Of a DNA stretch of 64,000 nucleotides, positions 5,278-64,000 are shown piece by piece. The notes beneath the pieces are model-generated. The model worked only from the letters and a program-made list of their open reading frames with translations, searched no databases and was not told the DNA's origin. Each line of letters begins with the position of its first letter. The first letter of the stretch is position 1. Both the position numbers and the translations under genes were made by a program. Source of the stretch: Nitrospina sp. LS_NOB (GTDB taxonomy: Bacteria; Nitrospinota; Nitrospinia; Nitrospinales; VA-1); NCBI GenBank assembly GCA_001542995.1, contig LFLA01000013.1:1-64000 (forward strand). The letters are read 5' to 3'.

Positions 5278-6054
5278 CTAGAAAAACCCTTTTGGCTTTT
5301 TTCTGATCCTCAGCATATCAGAAGCTATCAGGTGGTTCAGGCCCTGGAAAAGGGAAACTATCACGGAACCCGGACCAATATTCCCGGCGGAGGCCACACC
5401 CAGTGCCGAAAGCATTGCATCGGCAATACGCGACCAAGCAAGATGACTTTTTTGCAGACTGTAGTGGATTTTATCCATGCCGCAGAATGCGCCCAGTCCA
5501 CTCACTAAATGAACCCGCTCGTTCTGCCGTGATTTTTCTTCAAGGTAATGATTTACCTTTTTTACCGCCACATCGGCCTGCTCAAAAGTCACCGGACTTT
5601 TTGGATAAAAGATGGCCTTCAATAATTTGAAGGAGGCCTTTCCCATATCTTTGGACACATCCACATGAATGGAGGTCACAAAGACCTCGGCGTTCCATTG
5701 CAGGGATTTTTCGATCAGGCTGTCCAGGCATTTAATGAGAGAAGGGTCAGGCACTCCATACATGATGTCATTGCCGATATCAGTCAATAGTACCGCCATT
5801 CGAGAACCACGTTCCGCATAAGCTCTGGCAGATTCCATAACCCGGCATTCACCAATGGGGGGAAAATAGGTGAAATTGAACAATCCTCCTCGGGCGCAAT
5901 AACCTCGGCCTGGTCCCATCGCGTTGACAAACTCGACTTGTGAAATATTTTGGGAAATTTTTCGGGTCAGGGCAGAGTAGCCCCGCGCCAGGTTGCTGGC
6001 CCCTAACAGGATAAAGAGAAAATCGTCTTGGCTGGCGGCAGTGGAGCCTTGCAT
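5278..6054 (-). CDS. SGNH/GDSL-hydrolase-like protein, unknown substrate
   Basis: 258 residues with scattered blocks of the SGNH hydrolase fold. Block I is GASNLARG near residue 18, where GDS has become GAS with the nucleophile serine kept. Block III is TDIGNDIMYG with the expected N, and DKIHYSLQKSHLAWSRIA near the C-terminus has D and H in a block-V-like spacing. A glycine-rich GPGRGYCARGG segment sits in between. No signal peptide is visible, so it is probably cytoplasmic. The family could act as esterase, lipase or acyltransferase. The assignment rests on motif spacing only and is moderate. It lies between a PlsC acyltransferase and a DUF4124 gene in a minus-strand run. Confidence 0.5.
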   Translation of the reverse strand: MQGSTAASQDDFLFILLGASNLARGYSALTRKISQNISQVEFVNAMGPGRGYCARGGLFNFTYFPPIGECRVMESARAYAERGSRMAVLLTDIGNDIMYGVPDPSLIKCLDSLIEKSLQWNAEVFVTSIHVDVSKDMGKASFKLLKAIFYPKSPVTFEQADVAVKKVNHYLEEKSRQNERVHLVSGLGAFCGMDKIHYSLQKSHLAWSRIADAMLSALGVASAGNIGPGSVIVSLFQGLNHLIASDMLRIRKKPKGFF

Positions 6055-60390: not shown

Positions 60391-60653
60391 ACCGGACTGG
60401 TGAATGAACTAACTGCAAAAATCTCTATTTATTCGGTAATTTTCTCTAAGGCAACTCGCAGACCCTTATTTCATAATGGCTGCTCATGGCCAAAAACAAT
60501 ATCTTAAGATACCCTATATTACAACAAATCAGAAGGTCCGTAACGAGACATTCATAACCTGGACCATCAGGCCGGGGACAATTCTCCAGTTCATCGTCAA
60601 ACTTTTATCTGAATGATCACTTTGATGACACAACAGTAAAATTAATTAAAAAA

Positions 60654-60715
60654 TGGTGCCGAAGAGAAGACTCGAACTTCCACACCCTTTCGGGCACATG
60701 AGTTGGGATCATGTG
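60654..60715 (-). tRNA. Partial, tRNA-Leu-like 3' portion (probable att remnant)
   Basis: Minus strand. From 60681 down to 60654 the sequence gives a good T-arm (GGAAG-TTCGAGT-CTTCT), acceptor strand CTTCGGC, discriminator A and encoded CCA, as in tRNA-Leu. The long variable arm TGCCCGAAAGGGTGT precedes it. An anticodon-arm-like stem CACATGA-TCCCAAC-TCATGTG (60695-60715) comes before that, but position 33 is not U and no Leu anticodon is in place. The D-arm and 5' acceptor strand GCCGAAG are missing. It is therefore a fragment or chimera, not a working tRNA. It marks the border of AT-rich DNA to the right. Confidence 0.6.
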
Positions 60716-61019: not shown

Positions 61020-61464
61020 CATTATAACCCACCCCAAAAACTGGTTTACACAGATGGGACCAATATCCGCTTTGGGTCGATACCGCACACATGAGTTGGG
61101 ATCATGTAACGACACGATTGTTAATTTCTAAGGAGTTCACTGGTCGGTAATAATGGGCTTCGTGATATTACCAACATTAAACTTCGTGCCCCGAAGGGGT
61201 AGAACTCGCGGCCGTTGGAGTTGGGATCCAGTGGTTGCTACAGCTGGGATGCAACAAATAGCCGATCATTGTTTCTTTTGAAGTTAGAACAACTATCTTT
61301 TACCCAAAAGCCCTTCCCTAATAGCTGCGTGGAAATCCATTTTACACCAATATTTATATGATTTGGATTTCGGATAATTTTTTTATTTTTTAAGTGCATA
61401 TGTTATAACCAACCTTAATGGCTGGTAAATCAACCTAATTTATTAAGTTTTTTGATTTAAAATT
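61020..61464. other. Island-edge intergenic region
   Basis: 445 bp with no firm gene. It holds a second copy of the anticodon-arm-like sequence (CACATGAGTTGGGATCATGT, 61089-61108), a shorter one (GAGTTGGGATCCA near 61218), and a family B palindrome (CCCCGAAGGGG near 61190). The part after 61260 is AT-rich and leads to the methyltransferase gene. A 36-codon minus-strand ORF ending inside the terminator is not credible. Confidence 0.5.
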
Positions 61465-63615
61465 ATGCTAGCAAAAACTAAGCGAACAAAATTTCCTTCC
61501 AAATCCCCCATTCCCAAAAAAACGGCCATTGAATTAGATATGCCTGTGGAATTTATGCATGGTTTGGCTATTAGAGAAGGAAATAGCAAGAAACCGGTTT
61601 ACGAATTGCATAAATGGTGGGCAAGAAGACTTGGTACCTGTTTTCGAATGCTCTTACTTGGAGCGACTACGAGTTCAAGAAAAAGACACATTTTATTTAA
61701 CGGGGCATTTTTTAAAGCACACAGTCTTGAGAATTTAGTAGTTTTAGACCCATTTATGGGAGGGGGAACTTCTGTAGTTGAATCTACTAAGTTTGGAGCA
61801 AAAGTAATTGGGGTAGATATTGATCCTGTTGCATGCTTAATTGCAAAAAAAGAAATTGAAGCAATTAATGAAAGTGACCTTTTAATAGCATTTGAGAAAA
61901 TTGAAGATAAGTGTGCCAAGAAAATTAAGGATCGGTATACCACACGTTTGCCAAATGGTACTAGTGCAATAATAGTTAATGCATTTTGGGTTGATATTTT
62001 AACTTGCTTGGAATGCAAATCAATTGTTGATGGTCACCCTCATTTTCGGCTTTCTTCTGACAAAAACAATTTCCACCAAACAGTTTTTTGTGAGTCCTGT
62101 GGTCAAATTACAAATACCCACTTAAATTATAAATCATTTACTTGTAAAAATTGCAATTTCAGAACCAATATTGATAAGGGTCCTACTTCTTTGGGTATTT
62201 TAAATTGCAGTGTTTGTAAAACTACTACTCCAATTCTTAAAATGGTCAAAAAAGGGAAACCCTTGTCGCGCAAACTTTTTGCAATGGAAGTACTTATTGA
62301 TGGACAACGTAGGACTACTTTTATAAAAGCAAGAAAAGCTGATATTACTCTATATAAAAAGTCTCAAGGAGAATTTAAAAAAAACAGGGCAAAACTTATT
62401 TTTCCAAAAGTAAAAATCCCCTTAGAAGGAAGAAGTGATAGCCGTCCAATTAATCATGGATTTGAAACGTATGCAAGTTTATTCAATGATCGCCAATTGC
62501 TCTGTTTAAGCGAGATAGGCAAGGAAATTGCTAAAATAAAAAATAAAAAAATAAAAGAATTTATTGCTATCGCCTTTTCTGATTGTTTGGCTTCAAATAA
62601 TATGCTTTGTGCTTACGCTTTTGGTTATAAAAAGCTTACACCTTTATTTGGATTACACGGATTTAGAAAAATTGTACGACCTGTTGAAAACAATGTATGG
62701 GGAACTGAATTTGGAAGAGGTTCTTTTATTAAATGTTTTCGGAAATTGTTGAGAGCGAAAAAATATTCAAAGCGTCCATATGAATTTAATTATTCCAATG
62801 GAATGCCTAAGCCTATATATACTGGAGAGACTGCTGAATCAAGAATTGCCACACGGTTTCCGCTACTGTTTTCTAAGCCAGGTCCTTCTACGTTTATTTT
62901 AAACTCTTCATCTGAAAATTTGAGAAAGATTCCAAATAAATCTGTGGACTTAATTTTAACAGATCCTCCTTATTTCGATAACATTCATTACTCAGAAATG
63001 TCCGATTTTTACCATGTATGGCTCAGAAAAATTTTAGGACCATCTTACGTTGGTTTCAAAAATAATCACACACCTTTTGTTGATTCACTTTTTCCCACTA
63101 AATATTTAGATAGTAGTGTTGTAAGTAGTGCACAGGGTTTTCGGAAAAAGATTTTTCAAATTTTTGGTGAGTGCCGTAGAGTAATAAAGCCAAATGGACT
63201 GTTAATTTTTACTCATCACCATAGAAGTTTAATTGCATGGCAAAATCTTGCTGTCGCCGTATTGCTTAATCGATTTTCTGTGAAAAATGTATTTCCTGTC
63301 CGGTCAGAGGGGCGAGGCGGATTTCATAATTCAGAAGGGAATTTACGGTGGGATGCGGTGGTTGTTGCTAGGCCAATAAAGAAACTCGAAAATAAAAATC
63401 CTAGCCTGAAGATTATAGGAAAGCGTGTTTTAAATCAGTTGGAATATTGGAAAAAACGTCTTGAATTATCGAATATCTCGTTGTCGGATTCGGATTCAAT
63501 TAGTATGAGAAGAGCTTTTCTTCTTAAAGAATTTAGTGACTTTAAAGTAAATGAATCTGATTTAATGAAAATGATGGCCGATGTAGATCTTGTTCATACA
63601 TTGCCTAATAAGTAA
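61465..63615 (+). CDS. DUF1156-type DNA methyltransferase with zinc knuckles
   Basis: 716 residues. The N-terminus holds YELHKWWARRLG (47-58), the hallmark of DUF1156 methylases. SAM motif I is LDPFMGGGTSVVE (94-106) and the catalytic motif DPPYFDNIHYSEM (500-512), so amino-methylation of adenine (or cytosine N4) is expected. Between them, residues ~178-260, lie four C-x2-C pairs (CLEC, CESC, CKNC, CSVC), likely two zinc ribbons. Base composition is markedly AT-rich with AAA, ATT and TTA codons, unlike the rest of the window. DUF1156 methylases occur in defence islands with helicases and DUF499 ATPases. No ribosome-binding site is evident at the ATG. Confidence 0.85.
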   Translation: MLAKTKRTKFPSKSPIPKKTAIELDMPVEFMHGLAIREGNSKKPVYELHKWWARRLGTCFRMLLLGATTSSRKRHILFNGAFFKAHSLENLVVLDPFMGGGTSVVESTKFGAKVIGVDIDPVACLIAKKEIEAINESDLLIAFEKIEDKCAKKIKDRYTTRLPNGTSAIIVNAFWVDILTCLECKSIVDGHPHFRLSSDKNNFHQTVFCESCGQITNTHLNYKSFTCKNCNFRTNIDKGPTSLGILNCSVCKTTTPILKMVKKGKPLSRKLFAMEVLIDGQRRTTFIKARKADITLYKKSQGEFKKNRAKLIFPKVKIPLEGRSDSRPINHGFETYASLFNDRQLLCLSEIGKEIAKIKNKKIKEFIAIAFSDCLASNNMLCAYAFGYKKLTPLFGLHGFRKIVRPVENNVWGTEFGRGSFIKCFRKLLRAKKYSKRPYEFNYSNGMPKPIYTGETAESRIATRFPLLFSKPGPSTFILNSSSENLRKIPNKSVDLILTDPPYFDNIHYSEMSDFYHVWLRKILGPSYVGFKNNHTPFVDSLFPTKYLDSSVVSSAQGFRKKIFQIFGECRRVIKPNGLLIFTHHHRSLIAWQNLAVAVLLNRFSVKNVFPVRSEGRGGFHNSEGNLRWDAVVVARPIKKLENKNPSLKIIGKRVLNQLEYWKKRLELSNISLSDSDSISMRRAFLLKEFSDFKVNESDLMKMMADVDLVHTLPNK

Positions 63616-63696
63616 TTTGTTTGCATTAGCTTGAATAAAATATGTTCCCAAATATTATCTCATTTTAGGAACCCATGTAGTTAGGAGAAAATCAAT

Positions 63697-64000
63697 ATGC
63701 CTTCTAACATTCCGTACGATAGAGCGCGATACAAAATTATTAAAAAGCTCCAGTCCGCCCAAAGGGAAGACAGTAACGAAACCCTGCCTACAGCAAAACT
63801 CATTTTAAAAGGAAAAGCGGAGATAATGGATATATACCGTTTTTCAACACAAGATCTGCTTTTTAATAAAGCAAATGGGCGTTTGGCATCTGAGGTTATA
63901 GCTTGGGAAAATGAAGAGGGCCATATACTTGATCCTCTTAATATTGATGATCAAGCAGTTCTTAGAGAACTATTGCTATCTCTTAGTCCAGACGTAAATA
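63697..64000 (+). CDS. Start of an unidentified island gene (cut by window end)
   Basis: ATG 63697 with AGGAGA eight bases upstream; open for 101 codons to the window edge. The peptide starts MPSNIPYDRARYKIIKKLQS and includes IYRFSTQDLLFNKANGRLAS and LDPLNIDDQAVLRELLLSLS. The element LxFNxxNGR is reminiscent of proteins with a ParB-like or DNA-modification-linked N-terminus, but no family can be named. It follows the methyltransferase by 81 bp on the same strand and shares its AT-rich style, so the two probably form one operon of the island. Confidence 0.75.
   Translation, partial: MPSNIPYDRARYKIIKKLQSAQREDSNETLPTAKLILKGKAEIMDIYRFSTQDLLFNKANGRLASEVIAWENEEGHILDPLNIDDQAVLRELLLSLSPDVN

Follow-up and report, generated by a model that had tools for sequence, protein, structure and literature searches.

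The Hma/BR systems (PMC12839542; the COG1743-DUF499-SWI2/SNF2 systems of PMC7641849) contain a COG1743/DUF1156 methylase with a zinc-finger insert, a DUF499 ATPase, an SNF2 helicase, and a PD-(D/E)XK or PLD nuclease, and their SNF2 helicase is known to occur with a fused DUF3883 domain (PMC3710099). The MORC/paraMORC restriction-modification operons (PMC2292703) are mobile and contain a methylase, mostly of the C5 type, an SNF2 helicase, a REase-fold or HKD nuclease, Vsr, and an extra NTPase gene. ParB-fold proteins are the subject of a 2025 survey (PMC12704722), which treats fusions and orphan ParBs, reports no NTP binding in 17 of the 28 ParB-fold proteins assayed, and states that the nucleotide choice of such proteins is not predictable from sequence or AlphaFold3.

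Here we analyzed an operon that begins near the right end of a 64,000-nucleotide stretch of DNA from Nitrospina sp. LS_NOB (the window, bases 1-64000 of the 107,224-base contig C23 in a 2.65-Mb genome). Its five genes encode a methylase (gene 1), a predicted ParB-fold protein (gene 2), an SNF2 helicase (gene 3), a predicted nuclease (gene 4), and a putative cargo protein (gene 5). With Hma/BR systems the operon shares the methylase class, the SNF2 helicase, and a PD-(D/E)XK-type nuclease, but it has a ParB-fold protein instead of the DUF499 ATPase, it encodes the helicase (about 640 aa) and the nuclease (about 320 aa) separately, and the methylase in its family is exchangeable with Dam, N6/N4, and C5 types. 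No match to the DUF499 AAA+ ATPase was found in any of the five island proteins, and gene 3 matches the HmaA-type helicase weakly, at 1.6e-4 over part of the profile. In layout, the operon most resembles the MORC/paraMORC operons, which have a GHKL ATPase where the window operon has the ParB-fold protein; ParB is not mentioned in the text of the MORC paper (PMC2292703).

Among named defence helicases, gene 3 is closest by profile to ZorD of type I Zorya (9e-35) and to DISARM DrmD / DpdE. However, gene 3 is a helicase core with no fused Mrr-like nuclease, and the operon has no ZorABC, DrmA/DrmB, or Dpd genes. The ZorA/ZorB membrane motor genes have no match in the island, where only the helicase resembles ZorD; DISARM DrmB (DUF1998) has no match either, and the similarity of gene 3 to DrmD/DrmA is generic to SNF2 proteins. 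The profiles of BREX PglZ and BrxC and of type I restriction-modification HsdR/M/S also gave no match in the five island genes. As for type II restriction-modification systems (DpnII, BanI, C5 methylases), genes for a C5 methylase and a DpnII- or BanI-like endonuclease are found in many loci related to the operon, but the operon itself has no such endonuclease, and the triad of genes 2 to 4 adds ATP- and possibly NTP-dependent parts. The first-pass annotation had proposed a variant defence or DNA-modification operon, a proposal to be given up if the downstream genes formed a standard system. Because they form no described system (no DUF499, BrxC/PglZ, DrmB, or HsdR/M/S), the proposal stands, and the conserved methylase-linked module described below supports it.

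A five-gene operon on a tRNA-Leu island

The first-pass annotation had also placed most of the operon beyond the window. Rightward extension bore this out and revealed ParB-like, SNF2, and DUF3883 genes downstream of the methylase frame, which is present as annotated. All five genes are co-directional on the + strand, and the operon starts at 61465 and runs past the window end (Table 1). Genes 2 and 3 overlap by 4 bp.

Table 1 Features of the operon and its island. Locus L002 is the rightward extension (window coordinate = L002 coordinate + 59999); positions above 64000 belong to contig C23, outside the window.
Feature	Position	Strand	Basis
Left island boundary: 50-51 bp exact copy of the tRNA-Leu(CAG) 3' end, attachment-site-like	60652..60702	+	Repeat search, ARAGORN, blastn
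Gene 1: COG1743/DUF1156-type N6/N4 DNA methyltransferase (predicted), 716 aa	61465-63615	+	ORF, profile matches, alignment
Gene 2: ParB-fold protein (predicted), 469 aa	C23:63697-65106 (L002:3698-5107); 63697..64000 inside the window	+	Homologue model and Foldseek
Gene 3: SNF2 helicase, 637 aa	C23:65103-67016 (L002:5104-7017)	+	Pfam
Gene 4: DUF3883/NOV_C nuclease (predicted), 319 aa	C23:67018-67977 (L002:7019-7978)	+	Pfam, D...ExK signature
Gene 5: LAPAL/PDC-S42 cargo, 296 aa	C23:68040-68930 (L002:8041-8931)	+	NCBIfam, PADLOC
Second repeat copy, within the tRNA-Leu gene (gene 69903-69989, - strand)	C23:69901-69950		Repeat search, ARAGORN, blastn

The operon sits on a tRNA-associated island at a variable site. 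The island between the two tRNA-Leu repeats is 9.25 kb long and has a GC content of 0.35, compared with 0.483 and 0.480 in its flanks (genome 48%) and 0.43 to 0.53 in 2-kb windows outside it. A search of 59 related genomes, 15 from the same genus, found no match to gene 2, and the island was called absent from these 59 relatives. In relatives, the interval from tRNA-Leu to mnmG holds other genes and spans about 10 kb. No integrase gene was seen in the island. Taken together, these features are best read as a horizontally acquired, mobile operon.

Other repeats were found around this type of site. In a genome of the same genus (G013), the 3' end of this tRNA-Leu is likewise repeated over 46 bp, at 1883-1928 and 5906-5951 of locus L119 (G013:C7), 4 kb from the tRNA. 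The tRNA-Leu site thus seems to be one where integration recurs, with cargo that differs. In the window, a 20-nt repeat, CACATGAGTTGGGATCATGT, is present at 60695-60714 and 61088-61107 (L002:696-715 and 1089-1108), both copies left of the operon. It resembles the anticodon arm of tRNA-Leu with an altered loop, and the copies are perhaps remnants of earlier insertions.

Gene 5 matches NCBIfam NF053583 'LAPAL' with 171.9 bits (cut-off 60) and is also the PADLOC candidate PDC-S42. Because the related loci do not carry it, it was treated as cargo. We note that NCBIfam names 'LAPAL' a putative phage structural protein, yet here it stands behind a predicted defence operon. Plasmid searches with genes 4 and 5 gave no matches.

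Proteins encoded by the operon

Gene 1 contains the motifs DPFMGGG at residue 95 and DPPY at residue 500. The four CxxC pairs that the first-pass annotation had read between the SAM and catalytic motifs are indeed located there, at residues 181, 209, 227, and 248. Its label of a DUF1156 methyltransferase holds for the protein as a whole but not for the Pfam domain, since gene 1 matches PADLOC HmaB at 2.6e-24 and the Pfam DUF1156 domain scores 14.3 bits (E 0.046), short of the required 24 bits. A match to NCBIfam DUF1156_antiphage (NF042963, 4.4e-21) is far below the equivalog cut-off, and tblastn found haloarchaeal 'DUF1156 domain-containing' proteins with about 30% identity over about 89%. 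By sequence similarity, gene 1 as a whole protein is thus clearly of the COG1743/DUF1156 (HmaB) kind.

None of the eight cysteines varies among the three homologues closest to gene 1 (L015-L017, 41-42% identical), so they are not a chance feature; these three methylase genes also adjoin ParB genes. The haloarchaeal plasmid homologues adjoin DUF499 genes and carry five CxxC pairs, and other bacterial homologues carry two. According to a 2026 survey (PMC12839542), BR methylases have 4C zinc fingers in the target-recognition insert, two of them in a subset. Because homologues have CxxC pairs too and the survey reports 4C fingers, the two predicted zinc ribbons of gene 1 are a trait of the methylase family and not peculiar to this protein, and they probably form part of target recognition. 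A structure model of gene 1, built from a four-sequence alignment, had a pLDDT of 47 and was set aside. On a Natronorubrum bangense plasmid (L132:6121-7878), a DUF1156 methylase is divergent from an SNF2 gene and two uncharacterised genes; no ParB match and no annotated DUF499 were found in the part of this stretch examined, which is possibly another variant.

The first-pass annotation had stated that the next gene, with an LxFNxxNGR motif, was not a recognizable helicase or DUF499 ATPase. Profile searches agree: gene 2 has no Pfam, PADLOC, or significant NCBIfam match, and the helicase is the following gene, outside the window. A sequence-profile search of the PDB returned no ParB match to gene 2, just chance coiled-coil and HTH matches, and its identity was resolved by a fold search. 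The AlphaFold model of the L013 homologue (48-50% identical to gene 2; 40-sequence alignment) had a pLDDT of 89.7 and a pTM of 0.84, and its top 15 Foldseek matches in the PDB were all Noc/KorB/ParB/Spo0J proteins, including CTP-dependent ParB, with probabilities of 0.96-1.00. In this model, the ParB N-domain appears to be present with its NTP pocket. Among 41 family members searched against Pfam, HTH_ParB (5/41) and ddrB-ParB (5/41) were the commonest matches. Based on the model, the Foldseek matches, and these Pfam matches, gene 2 is predicted to be a ParB-fold protein with NTP-pocket motifs and a following HTH.

The conserved blocks of gene 2 (LxxNxxNGR, GQ..PG.., DGIVINGNRR, and E...Q........Y) occur in the same order as the ParB motifs. 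Ten residues are invariant in the family (R62, Q113, G123, G128, N129, R131, E168, Q172, Y181, and R298; n=85), where the conservation of GNRR in L013-L092 is partly built in because the scan pattern contained GNRR, a bias that does not affect the sequences from plasmids and phages, which were identified with tblastn. Gene 2 would thus share the ParB/Srx fold and the NTP-binding GxxR motif with the ParB/Noc/KorB CTPases, DndB, GmrS/DUF262, and DpdB, and an HTH after the fold with ParB/Noc/KorB. Unlike these relatives, it has no ParA partner and no covering Pfam family, is not fused to an HNH domain or a methylase, and is tied to SNF2 and nuclease genes. A group linked to SNF2 was not found in the main text of the ParB-fold survey (PMC12704722), whose search may have missed the gene 2 family because most members have no Pfam match.

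Gene 3 matches the SNF2 helicases of Pfam at 9e-23, and its Walker A K155 and DEAH-like D253/E254 are invariant across relatives. Gene 4 contains a NOV_C/DUF3883 domain (Pfam, 3e-14), which has been described as a REase-fold domain (PMC3710099). Its residues D227, E245, and K247, none of which is replaced in any of the 68-69 sequences compared, form the full PD-(D/E)XK signature (D...ExK). This complete catalytic triad suggests that gene 4 is a nuclease.

A methylase-linked module with exchangeable parts

Scanning 84,980 species genomes with a sequence pattern gave 194 relatives of gene 2 in bacteria and archaea, and the 80 loci that were kept come from many bacterial phyla and several archaeal ones. 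Together with plasmid and phage loci, 85 loci were analyzed, 75 of which have more than 4 kb of downstream sequence. In 72 of these 75 the SNF2 gene directly follows the ParB gene, and both SNF2 and NOV_C are present in 62, with median gaps of +1 bp between ParB and SNF2 and -26 bp between SNF2 and NOV_C. A methylase lies within 7 kb of ParB in 82/85 loci; of the three loci without one, one is at a contig end. The triad is also found on plasmids and prophage-like contigs. A single-sequence scan of viral contigs found no relatives, and an alignment-based scan of viral contigs found 10 loci. ParB-SNF2-NOV_C is a conserved, mobile, methylase-linked module. No description of a system combining ParB, SNF2, DUF3883, and a methylase was found in open-licence papers. 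The operon family is widespread and, as a restriction-type defence family, apparently unnamed and undescribed.

The methylase varies among the loci: DUF1156/COG1743 in the window locus and L015-L017, Dam/D12 in L013, L014, and L076, N6/N4 in L008 and L023, and two C5 types, a long one with a GSPPC motif and a Dcm-like one, in other loci. Mapped on the ParB tree, a quick tree with some long branches, the methylases require at least 5 changes when sorted into four chemistry classes and 11 when sorted into five finer ones, and starred branches force at least 3 changes for DUF1156 alone. The nearest ParB relatives of gene 2, those of L013 and L014 (48-50% identical), form with it a fully supported group of three, and both have Dam-type (D12) methylases. 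Many C5 loci have the DpnII- or BanI-like endonuclease gene between the methylase and ParB, and Vsr-like genes are present in some related loci. The long C5 methylases (530-580 aa; loci L018-L027, L035, and L043-L091) have GSPPC in place of the usual PCQ motif, carry a C-terminal extension, and are strongly tied to the ParB-SNF2-NOV_C triad.

The last gene varies as well. In L052 and L077, a MutH-like endonuclease replaces NOV_C after ParB-SNF2, and in L043 (12169-13221) a TIR-domain protein (TIR_2, 1.3e-12) takes its place after C5 methylase-ParB-SNF2. L006 encodes a MutH-like protein and a helicase fused to a PLD-type domain, recognized from its HKD motif and not by profile; the same fusion is found in L012. 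In L079, L084, L090, and L092, and for the second ParB of L050 (assigned by resemblance only), a PGAP1/DUF676-like alpha/beta hydrolase directly follows ParB, with no SNF2 gene; in L084 a divergent MTase-ParB-SNF2 unit adjoins the ParB-hydrolase pair. Such pairs may represent a distinct version of the system that attacks membranes. The comparison of the loci points to ParB, with SNF2 in most loci, as the putative constant sensor and the last gene as the effector, with methylase class and effector exchangeable.

Possible function of the operon

The gene content fits restriction-modification in the broad sense, with a methylase and a predicted nuclease encoded together, and we consider it very probable that the operon is some restriction- or defence-type system. 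More specifically, we see about an even chance that it is a horizontally acquired, ATP-dependent restriction-modification system of unnamed architecture with a ParB-fold sensor or clamp. In such a system, the gene 1 methylase would mark and thereby protect a host site; the mark is probably N6-adenine, because of the DPPY motif and in keeping with the family. ParB, Noc, and KorB close into an NTP-dependent clamp on DNA. By analogy, the gene 2 protein, with its predicted NTP pocket and HTH, would read an unmarked site and close into a clamp of this kind. It would then load or license the SNF2 motor, a coupling that we infer because the two genes overlap and are constantly adjacent. The motor would move along the DNA and trigger the DUF3883 nuclease, which would cut foreign DNA. 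The adjacency of the triad, the methylase swaps, the ParB fold, the nuclease and SNF2 motifs, the restriction-modification setting, and the island are consistent with this scheme. Translocation may not always be needed, since some ParB relatives are paired with an alpha/beta hydrolase and no helicase, and in loci that also encode a dedicated type II endonuclease, the triad could play an auxiliary part and not be the main restriction enzyme. The 17 of 28 ParB-fold proteins that showed no NTP binding (PMC12704722) likewise speak against taking an NTP-dependent clamp for granted.

The main rival explanation, unlikely in our judgment, is that the SNF2-DUF3883 pair is a complete restriction enzyme and the ParB-fold protein is solely a transcriptional regulator that delays or tunes expression, like DndB or KorB. 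The position of the ParB gene between the methylase and effector genes, its HTH, and the presence of KorB among the best structural matches agree with a regulator, and DndB is a ParB-fold repressor according to PMC12704722. However, ParB and SNF2 genes are nearly always adjacent and often overlapping, though methylase, position, and effector change, and ParB remains with the effector where SNF2 is absent. Moreover, something must read the site, because the NOV_C nuclease has no evident site-recognition domain. It is less probable still that the ParB-fold protein acts as the effector, with DNase/NTPase activity of the type claimed for the ParB/Srx-family Osa and GmrS, and that SNF2 and DUF3883 are auxiliaries. 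Non-specific nicking and NTPase activity have been reported for ParB/Srx-family proteins (PMC5512222), and the family shows little or no variation at Y181 and at the conserved arginine pair, but most loci encode a separate nuclease with an invariant PD-(D/E)XK triad, and another effector replaces it when it is absent.

Two further readings were rejected. That the operon belongs to the DUF499-centred Hma/BREX-related (BR) systems, or is a degraded variant that lost the ATPase, is suggested by the homology of its methylase to HmaB and by the haloarchaeal homologues next to DUF499 genes. We consider this very improbable: the island has no DUF499 or BrxC-like gene, the helicase matches HmaA far less well than ZorD, and the closest ParB relatives use unrelated methylases, so that only the methylase is common to both. 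Most remote of all is the reading of the ParB gene as a plasmid-partition relic, with methylase, helicase, and nuclease as unrelated cargo. The ParB fold, the mobile island, and the ParA genes near ParB in L012 could be taken to suggest partition, but L012 is the only one of the 85 loci with a ParA-like motif within five genes of ParB, the window locus has no ParA in that range or next to ParB, and the ParB-SNF2-nuclease triad is conserved across phyla. This reading was therefore rejected for the family as a whole.

We return to the proposed restriction-modification system with a ParB-fold sensor. We regard it as a form of methylase-linked ATP-dependent restriction and not as categorically new; its novelty lies in the ParB-like gene 2 and in the helicase and nuclease that go with it, not in the methylase. 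A broader proposal, which we regard as tentative and lean against, is a new class of immune system that detects foreign DNA lacking methylation through a central sensor, a ParB-type clamp that slides on DNA and is gated by NTP. This sensor would serve as a universal front end, joined anew in different bacteria and archaea to any methylase (m6A, m4C, or m5C) and to various killing parts, namely a motor with its nuclease, a MutH-like endonuclease, a TIR domain, or a hydrolase resembling lipases.

If the proposed reading is right, the 194 relatives from one pattern scan would represent a widespread, unnamed, methylase-linked defence family that escapes annotation, since neither Pfam nor NCBIfam has a model for most of its central ParB-like proteins. 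A definite role would also be at hand for 'orphan' ParB-fold proteins, a question raised by the 2025 survey (PMC12704722). Loci that combine the same sensor and motor with differing methylases and effectors may serve as natural swap experiments.
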